64,000 nucleotides of DNA, from NCBI GenBank assembly GCA_948144175.1, contig CANXME010000249.1:55898-119897 (forward strand), given 5' to 3'. Of the stretch, positions 44,089 through 47,916 are shown piece by piece. Position 1 is the first letter of the stretch, and every line of letters starts with the position of its first letter. The notes beneath the pieces are model-generated. The model was not told where the DNA came from, did not search any database, and saw nothing but the letters and a program-made list of their open reading frames with translations. The DNA comes from Closterium sp. NIES-65 (taxonomy: Eukaryota > Streptophyta > Zygnematophyceae > Desmidiales > Closteriaceae). The position numbers and the translations under genes were made by a program.

Positions 44089-45320
44089 TTATGCAACCCA
44101 ACTGTCCTCAGTGGGGTCGTATCCCTTCCAGCGTATCAGGAACTCGAGGGTCTTGCCGCCGCGGCGCCGATGAGAGAGAACGCGCTCGATCTCGTACTCG
44201 GGTTCATCCTGTATGAGAACAGGTGCTGGTGGCGGTAGTTGCCGTCCCTGGAACTGTTGGTTGGGGTCCTTGTAGGGCTTCAGTAGCTGGACATGGAAAG
44301 CGTTGTGAAGCTTCCATGTATCTGGTAAGCGCAAGCGGAATGTAACTGGTGTCACCTGTGCCTCAACGAGAAAAGGACCACAGAAGCGAGGCCGGAGTTT
44401 GGATGGGAGGTGAGACAGGTTCAAGTTGCGCGTGTCAAGAAGCACCTGATCTCCGACTGCTACTGAGTGATCACGTCGCTGACGATCGGCATACTGCTTC
44501 TAGGAGTTTTGCATCGTTGTGAGACGTCGCTGAGTCTTCTCCCATAGCTGCTGCATGGTGGTGACGAAGTCATGTGCGGCTTGGACGTCTGCCGGTGTGG
44601 TTGGCTGCTGTGGTGTGAGTGGTTCCCGTCCGTAACACAGGAAGAAAGGAGTTTTCCCTGTGGCCGCATGTGATGCGTTGTTGTAAGCGAACTCTAGGGT
44701 TGGTAACTGTGTGTCCCAGTGGCTGACGTCGTCCTTGCAAGCTGTGCGCAGTAACTATTCAACCACTTGATTGAGTCGCTCTGTCTGTCCGTCAGTCTGG
44801 GGGTGGTATGCTGAAGACATTGCAAGCTTTGTCCCCAACAGTCCCATGAGCTCCTTCCAGAACTTACTCGTGAATTTGGGGTCTCTGTCTGAGATGAGTG
44901 TAGCGGGGATGCCGTGGATGGTGATGATGCGGTCGAAGAAGAGTCGAGCAGTTGCTTCAGCTGTAGCTGTGGCGTTGGTCGGTATGAAGTGACCCATTTT
45001 GGAGAACTTATCGATCACCACGAGGATGGAATCATGTCCCCGTGAGGTCGAAGGAAGTCCTGTGATGAAGTCGAGGCTAACGACCTGCCATGGCTGCTCC
45101 GGTACGGGTAGAGGCTGAAGTAACCCTGCTTTTTTCTGCTTGCTGCTCTTCATCCGCTGGCACGTGTCGCAAGAGGTGACGAACTGCTGCACGTCTGCTG
45201 CCATCCCGGGCCAGTAGTAATACTTCGCTATCCCTGCTAACGTCTTGTTGCTCCCGAAATGTCCCGCGTAAGGTACGTCGTGAAACTCCTCCAATAGGAT
45301 CTGCCGTAGCAGGGCGTAGT
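44089..45320 (-). pseudogene. Gypsy integrase and chromodomain
   Basis: The integrase starts EEFHDVPYAGHFGSNKT with the HHCC zinc site ending CDTCQRMK, then LDFITGLPSTSRG, VVIDKFSKMGHF, LISDRDPKFTSKFW and HPQTDGQTERLNQVVE, the D-D-E core of chromoviruses. It is broken at 44755 and in 44460-44750 by stops. A C-terminal segment follows, with GPFLVEAQVTPVTFRLRLP and a chromodomain EYEIERVLSHRRRGGKTL then EFLIRWKGYDPTEDSWV. Chromodomains direct such elements to marked heterochromatin. Confidence 0.9.
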
Positions 45321-45697
45321 TGTCAAAATCCCAACCACTAGACCATTGGGATCAAAGGGCTTGTTTCAGTAGCGGGTCAGTGCGCCCATAACCCCCCAAG
45401 CAAACGCGCCTGTAACCCCCCCTAGGATCGATCGGGGATCTCACAGTGTAGCTCTACTGACACCCCCCCACACTGGGAGGCCCAGGACTGAGCACAGTGG
45501 CAACGGCCAACATGTGCATACACCGGGATTCGAACCCGAGACCGCTCTGATACCATGTCAGAATCCCAACCACTAGACCATTGGGATCAAAGGGCTTGTT
45601 TCAGTAGCGGGTCAGTGCGCCCATAACCCCCCAGGCAAACGCGCCTGTAACCCCCCCTAGGATCGATCGGGGATCTCACAGTGTAGCTCTACTGACA
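45321..45697 (-). mobile_element. TRIM (terminal-repeat retrotransposon in miniature)
   Basis: A 377-bp non-coding element. Two 142-bp terminal repeats (45321-45462 and 45556-45697, TGTCA...TGACA, two A/G differences) enclose 93 bp. Read on the minus strand, the interior begins with a perfect primer site TGGTATCAGAGC and ends in a G-rich polypurine tract (complement of 45463-45477). Flanks GTAGT (45316-45320) and GTAAT (45698-45702) are a 5-bp target duplication with one change. Removing it restores the Gypsy reading frame as VPNYALLRQ. It depends on other elements' enzymes for movement. Confidence 0.92.
45526..45586 (-). promoter_or_regulatory. Pol III-type A box and B box across the TRIM LTR/primer-site junction
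   Basis: On the minus strand TGGTCTAGTGG (45580-45570, near the end of the 5' LTR) matches the tRNA A-box consensus TRGYNNARNGG. GGTTCGAATCC (45536-45526) matches the B-box consensus GGTTCGANNCC. Their starts are 44 nt apart, exactly as in a tRNA gene without intron or long variable arm, with the primer site between them. The A box also sits in a hairpin (TCCCAA...TTGGGA, 45564-45586). The head resembles Glu-tRNA (TCCCAATGGTCTAGTGGTT). Confidence 0.7.
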
Positions 45698-47916
45698 GTA
45701 ATTCGGTACCCAAATCTTTCCTGAACCCTTCCTTACAGCTAAGTCTTTCTCCCACTGTAATAGCTTCTTACTGAGGTAGGCGATGGGCTGCAAACTGCGT
45801 TCGTGATGCTGCATCAGTACTGCTCCGACTGCTTGGTCACTAGCGTCTGCTTCCACCACATAGTCTCTGTCTGGATCCGGTAGGATGAGTACTGGCGCTA
45901 TAGTCAGTGCTGTCTGTTTGTTCAATGCGCGGTAGTCGATGCACATCCGTAAACTACCGTCTGGCTTTGGAGTGAAGAGAACTGGTGCACCGTAGGGAGA
46001 GGTGGATGGGCGGATCAGTTGTCTATCTAGTAGATACTCTATCTGTTTTTCATGTCTGTCAGTTCAGTCGGGCTCAGTCGGTATGGTGCACGTGAGACGG
46101 GTTTCGCACCTGGTTCCTCCACGATCTCGTGCTTGTGGGTGCGTGCTGGAGATACGCCTGTGGGTAGGTTGTCGGGCATTATATCCTTGTACTGCTCCAA
46201 GACCTCCTCTGCTGCTGCTATAACCAGTGCTAAGTAACCCGTGTTACTCTCGTTCACTGTCCGTTCGAACCGTGCCAGTGTCGTTTCAGGAACGCTCCCT
46301 GTATCCGTCAAGCTTCGCAGCTCCACTCGTTTCCCGTTGTTGTAGATGCACGTTTTCCGGTTGACCCAGTTGATCTTGGGGTTGAACCGCTTCAGAAAAT
46401 CTTGCCCCAAGATGAAATCTAATCCCTTGATGTTCGTGATCGGCAACGTCGGCTTCCACCTCAACGCCCTTATCTGCAGCTGCAATGTTGACTTTCCGTG
46501 GATGGGAAGCTTCGTACCGTCCACCATCGTTGCTATAAACTGGGTTTCTTCTTAGGATTCTCCAATTTTCTCCAACGTCCCGCGGTCGCACACCGAGTGG
46601 GACGCACCACTGTCCACCAGGGCCTGGAGGCGACGCCCGTTGCAGATCACCTCGAGTACTAGTGGTTGCTGCTGCTCCGAGTATCCGTAGATGGTATCGC
46701 TTATAGAATCGTAGGGTACGTCGAATATGTTATCCCTAGGTCCTGCGCTCAAAGATGCAGCTTCAGTATCAGTTTTCAACTGAGAAAGGTTAGAAGGATT
46801 TATCCGAGGCCGATTCGGCTTCTCTTGGGCCTGGAACCTTCCACTAAGCCTTTGCAGCTGTGTAGGCTTCATCTGTGGGGAACAGGGAGCCTTTAAACAG
46901 TGCTGTTGGGAGAGAATATTAACTCCTCGGAACGCTCGACCCGTATTAGCGCTCTGGAGTTGGGTCCCCATAATACCCGGTACCGGTTTAATTTCTGACT
47001 CTCCCTTAATAAAGGCTTGAAACCCACGAGAAGTAATATTCTTACTTGTCGGGGTATACGGCTGGAGTTTCCCGGTCGGTGCAGGGTCTTGTTTCGCGGA
47101 TCCTCCATTAGTCTCGGCGATTTCCCCTGGTGCCGGCTGGTCGTGACGTTTTAAATTTGCGCCACCATATTCTCCTTTTTTCGCCCTCTCCGAAGTTGCC
47201 ACGTTGTCCGTTTTCTGCTTCGGGGGTGCCGCACTGTTCTTGTCCTTCAGCTCCGCACACCTTCTCTTCATTTTCCAACACGCCAAGATACGATGTCCTG
47301 TAGCGCCGCAAAATTTGCACGTCTCATTATTTGCTAGCCGCTGCTCCACATAGCCCTCGTCGTTCTCCATGGGGTCGGCAGTCGTGGGTGGTGCCAATCG
47401 CCCCATGCCACTAGTTGGCTTGTTGCGTCGTGTTCCGTAGTAGCTACTGTTCAACGTGTCGAACTGTTCGATCAGTGCTGCCGGAACCTGCGCCCACGTC
47501 CCCTCGCCTTGGACTATTCTGTTGTTGATCCACTCTAGAGCTGGGCCTCGTAACAGTGTTGCTGCGAGCCGTATGCGCATTGCGTCTTTTGCCGGGGTCG
47601 TGCATCTAACGGCTTCGAAGTAAATTTCAAGTTCAGCTACAAATCGACGAACGTCGTTCCTTTTTACTGTAGGATCAAACGCCTCCGGTAGCCTCAGCTT
47701 CACTGCTTCGAGGTTAACTGTAGCTGCTGCCGTTGTCGCATGTAGAATTGTCGGTGTAGCCGCTGCTGCTGCTGCTACTGTTGTCGCTGCTGCTGTGGCG
47801 GTTGCCGACTGGTTCGCAAGGAGTTTTTCGAGTCGTGGGAGCGCTGCACGTATTTGCTTATGCTCAGCACGTAGCTCCGCGATTTTCTGTACTGAAATAT
47901 CTCTTTTTTCCTCCAT
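45689..47916 (-). pseudogene. Gypsy gag, protease, RT start and RNase H fragment
   Basis: gag starts at 47916 (MEEKRDISVQKIAELRAEH), has the retrotransposon-gag helical region (RLPEAFDPTVKRNDVRRFV) and a canonical zinc knuckle CKFCGATGHRILAC. The protease has ALVDSGASHSVCD, a TAA at 46552-46554 where the frame otherwise continues, then GLDFILGQDFLKRFNPKI. The RT begins EEPGAKPVSRAPYRLSP and CIDYRALNKQT, but the palm with YVDD is deleted: the sequence jumps to RNase H (VVEADASDQAVGAVLMQ, PIAYLSKKL) and again to the pre-integrase VRKGSGKIWVPNY. The element had no working RT before the TRIM inserted. Confidence 0.88.

Follow-up and report, generated by a model that had tools for sequence, protein, structure and literature searches.

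A TRIM element of Closterium sp. NIES-65 with a predicted tRNA-type Pol III promoter split over the junction of LTR and interior

Within a 64,000-nucleotide stretch of the Closterium sp. NIES-65 genome (the window), we characterized a TRIM element whose 5' LTR ends in a perfect A box and whose interior carries a perfect B box just past the primer-binding site, with starts 44 nt apart, as a preliminary description of this DNA had reported. It is probable, in our judgement, that Copia-type machinery mobilizes the element in trans and that Pol III transcribes it from a type-2 promoter split over the LTR/interior junction. We lean, less firmly, towards a more detailed version, in which LTR and interior would form a composite Pol III promoter with the primer site in place of the anticodon arm, in which promoter, primer site and terminal repeat R would be nested in about 75 nt, and in which solo LTRs would be silent. 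The parts of the model that we infer are Pol III use, the start, the stop, R, the Copia helper and activity of the 5' LTR only.

The element occupies 377 bp of the minus strand (45697 to 45321) and comprises a 142-bp LTR, a 93-bp interior and a second 142-bp LTR, the two LTRs being 99% identical. Its features, with the basis of each in brackets, are as follows.

45698..45702, minus strand: target duplication copy ATTAC (sequence)
45556..45697, minus strand: 5' LTR, TGTCAG...CTGACA, 142 bp (LTR comparison)
45595..45598, minus strand: CAAG, putative RNA start region (sequence; hybrid LTRs L034, L037/L184)
45588..45591, minus strand: proposed terminator, TTTG here and TTTT in most near-identical places (copy comparison)
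45563..45587, minus strand: hairpin ATCCCAA/TTGGGAT, the loop of which holds the A box (folding)
45570..45580, minus strand: A box TGGTCTAGTGG of the 5' LTR (motif, element position 118)
45546..45562, minus strand: anticodon-arm-like hairpin TCTGA/TCAGA across the LTR-primer site junction (folding)
45463..45555, minus strand: interior, 93 bp, with no room for genes (sequence)
45543..45555, minus strand: primer-binding site TGGTATCAGAGCG, element position 143 (13-nt complement to the 3' end of the genome's initiator tRNA-Met with CCA)
45526..45536, minus strand: B box GGTTCGAATCC in the interior (motif, element position 162)
45523..45539, minus strand: T-arm-like hairpin containing the B box (folding and tRNA model)
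45463..45473, minus strand: polypurine-type tract GTGTGGGGGGG adjoining the 3' LTR (read by eye)
45321..45462, minus strand: 3' LTR, 142 bp (LTR comparison)
45353..45356, minus strand: the same proposed-terminator site in the 3' LTR, TTTG (copy comparison)
45335..45345, minus strand: A box of the 3' LTR, with no B box downstream (motif, element position 353)
45316..45320, minus strand: target duplication copy ACTAC, one mismatch (sequence)

The element is short, has two LTRs, a primer site and a purine tract, lacks genes and belongs to a family with 5-bp target duplications, so its earlier designation as a genuine TRIM stands. The 5-bp duplication claimed for it has one mismatch in the window copy (ATTAC/ACTAC, a 4/5 match). 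Among 30 near-identical places that we fetched, a set chosen by similarity and comprising 28 distinct flanks, 26 have duplications matching at 5/5, three at 4/5 and one at 0/5; two of the three 4/5 cases are the window locus and its identical twin, and the 0/5 place adjoins another tandem unit. The LTR pairs are identical in 23 of these 30 similarity-selected places. The window copy is flanked by an RNase H domain on one side and by integrase H2C2 and core domains on the other, and, judged by these domains, the host sequence looks like a Gypsy-type pol.

The joint occurrence of the two boxes is not expected by chance. The window has 33 A-box-like matches where 200 first-order Markov windows predict 33.0; an A box by itself is therefore uninformative. 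The single B box compares with 0.09 expected from the same number of Markov windows. One A+B pair spaced 30-60 nt apart occurs in the window and none across the 200 Markov windows, which rules out chance pairing.

The family is very common in the 874-Mb genome. Exact 25-mers of the LTR end gave 3377+3530 = 6,907 matches, 24-mers of the LTR-primer site junction 1324+1381, a pattern of the core from A box to B box 1346+1424 = 2,770, and a pattern of primer site plus B box 1582+1676; every control, including the reversed core pattern, gave 0+0. All 100 listed of the 2,770 cores have the LTR end together with the primer site or a mutated form of it. With 40 of 1851 candidates scored, at least 42 full-length matches were listed at 98-100% identity, a count that includes twins and overlapping tandem units. 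By eye, no fewer than three types of LTR and two lengths of interior can be told apart. Some of 20 LTR ends chosen because no partner was listed at element spacing are solo LTRs flanked by matching 5-bp duplications, such as L151 (CAGGT) and L167 (TAAAT). The thousands of copies descend from one lineage, and the counts are therefore not independent tests.

Several copies are unusual in structure or position. At L108, an array of LTR-interior-LTR-interior-LTR was inserted as a single unit with ACGCG duplications. The LTRs of one subfamily (L087, L097, L098 and L106) end in CTGAGA, thus TG...GA and not TG...CA, with matching 5-bp duplications at both ends. Copies L008 and L010, oppositely oriented, share their insertion point to the nucleotide in Gypsy-like flanks that resemble each other, and both have GTAAT as their duplication; in ungapped comparison these flanks are 72-74% alike over 100 bp on each side and show no likeness farther out, and from sequence the two look like independent insertions at one site. 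Separately, plastid-type genes occur in both orientations within single contigs (C113, C155, C1848, C1956 and others), as in concatemers or assembly joins. Plastid-type sequences of the assembly include rbcL and a tRNA cluster. The rbcL sequence matches 9chz, 4hhh, 8q04 and 1aa1 best and 1gk8 slightly less well; 4hhh and 1aa1 come from flowering plants and 1gk8 from Chlamydomonas. Together with an initiator tRNA of land-plant-like appearance, this suggests a green and probably streptophyte host.

Both boxes recur across the family. We read 52 distinct sites with primer site and B box, taken from the first 54 listed places with two left out. A script recognized the TRIM LTR end at 43 of the 52, and L099, which has one base deleted, was added by eye. 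The A-box consensus is present in 40 of the 43 ends (34 with the exact 11-mer) and absent from three. The two boxes start 44 nt apart at 25 of those 40 sites and 47 nt apart at the other 15, which form a subfamily carrying three additional bases behind the primer site. Both boxes also persist in subfamilies that diverge in U3, spacer and length of the interior, and no base varies in either box among the 30 near-identical places, a set picked by similarity. As a side observation, eight of the 52 sites (L032, L036, L037, L075, L084, L089, L094 and L096) have another or a truncated LTR end, which suggests frequent template switching at the primer site.

The reverse comparison, made by hand on the first 75 listed LTR-primer site junctions (down to contig 84), found the B box intact in 56. 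The preliminary description had proposed to check whether boxes and spacing are conserved across copies; this was borne out as a spacing of 44 or 47 nt and thousands of cores, but not in the 19 junctions that lack an intact B box. Read individually, most of these 19 carry one or two changed bases in the box; one continues into a foreign interior, and in two a short interior is followed by other sequence. The boxes thus recur in amplified types and are unprotected in single copies. In 49 LTRs not followed by a primer site, the A-box block is well conserved, and positions 61-90 are as conserved as positions 101-130. Given box decay in copies and equal conservation of U3, purifying selection specific to the boxes after insertion is unsupported, and the conservation of U3 positions 61-90 is outside what the Pol III model explains.

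The genome's initiator tRNA, found as 26 matches to a pattern, pairs with the TRIM primer site over 13 nt, and the primer-site 12-mer occurs 8646+8779 times in the genome (control 2+6). We sampled the first 47 listed: six had already been read, all with a B box, one at a contig end was skipped, and 40 were fetched. Four of the 40 have a TRIM LTR end, with a changed B box in L129, L141 and L144 and a foreign interior in L140. The remaining 36 are parts of other LTR elements, which a crude grouping sorts into about 18 sequence types, one of them occurring 10 times. In none of the 36 does a B box follow the primer site within 38 nt or an A box precede it within 45 nt. As a general trait of initiator-tRNA primer sites the B box is thereby ruled out, and on this sample it appears to belong to the TRIM.

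Two further observations concern the primer site. A variant with an extra C (TGGTATCCAGAGC) is found in six of the 100 listed cores (C43:221343, C43:274541, C43:701877, C73:1230383, C74:27612 and C83:44430), and recurs although the tRNA should renew primer sites in each cycle. In L129 and L177, the TRIM LTR, primer site and B-box region run straight into TGTCAGAATAATATA-type sequence, which is perhaps another LTR family.

We propose the following cycle for the TRIM. TFIIIC would bind the A box, at the end of the LTR, and the B box, just past the primer site, and transcription by Pol III would begin near CAAG, about 16-20 nt upstream of the A box. The polymerase would then read through the primer site, the interior and the U3 of the 3' LTR and stop at the single T4 of that LTR. 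The resulting RNA would measure about 245 nt, and its terminal repeat R (AAGCCCTTTT) about 10 nt, a length that we consider sufficient for first-strand transfer. With cDNA primed by initiator tRNA-Met, both LTRs would be rebuilt and the promoter would be restored in each cycle. Solo LTRs and the 3' LTR, which have the A box only, should be silent.

The distribution of T4 runs can accommodate this scheme. The majority sequence derived from the near-identical places contains T4 only at positions 107 and 342, once per LTR, and no TATAA/TATAT, AATAAA or ATTAAA, the only Pol II signals sought. The run sits 7 nt before the A box in the main type; it does so in the 5' LTR too, which counts against the model, since Pol III would have to read past it at about +7 to +10. 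TTTT is present at this position in 27 of the 30 near-identical places and T4 in 40 of the 43 sampled TRIM ends, and the window copy and two relatives have TTTG in both LTRs. The window copy also carries, near its 3' LTR end (45325-45328, minus strand), a C-to-T change that creates a new TTTT; its usual T4 sites are TTTG.

CAAG lies at element positions 100-103, and plant tRNA genes often start at CAA. A start near CAAG and a stop at the T4 of the 3' LTR would define the R of about 10 nt. Two natural hybrids have joints in this region. In L034, a non-TRIM U3 is joined to the TRIM at AAACAAGCCC; in L037, both outer LTRs pass from TRIM U3 to a non-TRIM U5 at ACAAA, and TAGCT is the target duplication. 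A second occurrence of the L037 insertion, L184, differs from it at 7 of 651 bases. The joints of L034 and L037/L184 both fall 18-22 nt before the A box, at the proposed 5' end of the RNA, where template switching by strong-stop cDNA would produce them. The two hybrid LTRs are thus suggestive of an RNA start near CAAG. A non-TRIM U3 was seen at one of the 137 A-box sites examined, the near-identical set included.

Natural mutants are in line with the proposed promoter and terminator. The hybrid without an A box gave four pattern matches, which represent one insertion seen twice. The TTTG form gave 33 matches and occurs in both LTRs at 235 nt in only three places (the window copy, its twin and L008), all one insertion in a Gypsy-like element. 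As the model predicts, neither the A-box-less hybrid nor the TTTG copy shows a sign of amplification, and a single failed copy proves little.

Mixed elements, in which TRIM interiors are joined to other LTRs with the same primer site, bear on the helper. The other-element interior of one of these, L036, has a Copia-type gag-like ORF (PF14223, E 1.3e-05, 25.1 bits against a cut-off of 27). Together with the 5-bp duplications, this ORF points to Copia-type trans-mobilization, with a Copia-type element as a candidate helper. The other LTR that is joined to the TRIM interior in L036 (about 1230-1500) seems, by eye, to have a near-palindromic centre.

The likeness of the element to tRNA is partial. 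The Rfam tRNA model matched it at 16.4 bits (cut-off 29; E 1.1 over all families) over model positions 7-64 only, and the acceptor stem is absent. With ARAGORN finding no tRNA gene and the Rfam score below its cut-off, a full functional tRNA gene is ruled out. No Rfam family reached its gathering score in the window, and no 5S family was among the four weak matches of the element. A search for a tRNA donor with one exact tRNA-Glu-like pattern gave no match. Like the TRIM, tRNA-derived SINEs have tRNA-like A and B boxes and no genes; unlike it, they are moved by non-LTR elements and lack LTRs, a primer site and a purine tract. The comparison with SINEs of the same genome that the preliminary description had proposed came out empty: none of the 100 listed of the 2,770 matches is a SINE that combines these boxes with an ordinary anticodon region.

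The same sequence might serve as RNA structure and not as a promoter, a tRNA-like three-arm leader of a Pol II transcript aiding primer annealing, packaging or dimerization. At lowest energy, the 67- and 71-nt core does fold into three hairpins like the D, anticodon and T arms, the middle one spanning the LTR-primer site junction, but with flanks other folds win: a 90-nt stretch folds differently, and the z-score of an 88-nt stretch of the window copy is -1.2. Paired changes occur in the stem of one hairpin, where pair 7 is A-T in 82, G-C in 5 and A-C in 1 of 88 occurrences and a single copy additionally carries T-A in place of C-G at pair 5; as read from the sequences, however, this covariation may reflect one or two events. 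Moreover, structure alone needs neither an 11/11 B box nor an A box at tRNA spacing nor a lone T4, and the main type lacks TATA, AATAAA and ATTAAA, so we regard a purely structural role as unlikely. A far slighter chance attaches to the B box being a primer activation site that pairs with the T arm of the initiator tRNA to position the primer. Retroviral and Ty RNAs make extra primer contacts, and the B box lies 7-10 nt past the 12-nt primer site. Against this, complementarity to the tRNA outside the primer site extends over at most 6 nt, where shuffles average 6.2 (393 of 500 were at least as long), and over 5 nt in the B region, and the 36 sampled elements with the same primer do without a B box; with complementarity no higher than in shuffles, we reject an extra tRNA contact.

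A relic of tRNA-derived sequence, in which the promoter is dead and RNA arises by Pol II read-through or from a TATA-less U3 promoter, is likewise improbable. Loss of the acceptor stem, strong conservation of the U3 block at 61-90 and decay of the boxes after insertion would all suit such a relic; it is opposed by the invariance of both boxes in the 30 near-identical places, albeit places picked by similarity, and by their retention in subfamilies that differ in U3, spacer and interior length. The split Pol III promoter remains our preferred reading. The preliminary description had already seen a tRNA-type promoter across the junction, and the recurrence of the boxes, the absence of the B box from all 36 sampled other elements, the lack of TATA, AATAAA and ATTAAA and a workable T4 strengthen that view, but its novelty proves smaller than supposed.

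TRIMs with tRNA-like Pol III promoters, named Helenus (TRIMp3), were described by Kojima 2024, and according to excerpts of that paper Helenus and Ajax add tRNA- and 5S-promoter TRIMs to Cassandra (PMC10886601). As the same excerpts present it, Helenus resembles the element here in being a TRIM with tRNA-like A and B boxes, 5-bp duplications (in Helenus of plants and fungi), a primer site and a purine tract, and in having a Pol III promoter predicted from sequence; its only plant member, from Selaginella, has an LTR of 120 bp and an interior of 85 bp, compared with 142 and 93 here (PMC10886601). The tRNA-like sequence of Helenus is excerpted as lying inside the LTR, and hence in both LTRs (PMC10886601), whereas in our element the primer site separates an A box in the LTR from a B box in the interior. 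Compared by published description, the element does not have both boxes inside the LTR; it would thus fall outside Helenus as defined, and would be a TRIMp3 if Pol III use holds. Cassandra, in the quoted parts of the literature, shares with it the TRIM form, a methionine primer site and a short R, Pol III use being predicted here, and differs in having a 5S rRNA promoter inside the LTR (PMC10853983, PMC10886601); our element has no 5S rRNA sequence in its LTR. Cassandra RNA is summarized as starting in the 5' LTR and ending in the 3' LTR, with an 18-bp repeat (PMC10886601). TRIMs occur in land plants and algae, by excerpts of a paper in which the terms polymerase III, promoter and tRNA do not appear (PMC4717578). 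In partial texts of the open-licence PMC literature we found no description of a promoter split over LTR and interior, the excerpts of PMC10886601 included. What stood of the earlier novelty claim is thus this division, which, judged by these texts, appears to be new here; tRNA-like Pol III TRIMs as such had been published in 2024.

If the model is true, it would add a second route by which LTR elements exploit Pol III, with a promoter assembled only in full-length copies. The host would be spared transcription from solo LTRs and 3' LTRs, the activity of the element would depend on an intact LTR/interior junction, and one sequence would serve both TFIIIC and the primer tRNA. With its abundance, near-identical copies, natural hybrids and box mutants, the family makes the relation between promoter state and amplification directly testable.
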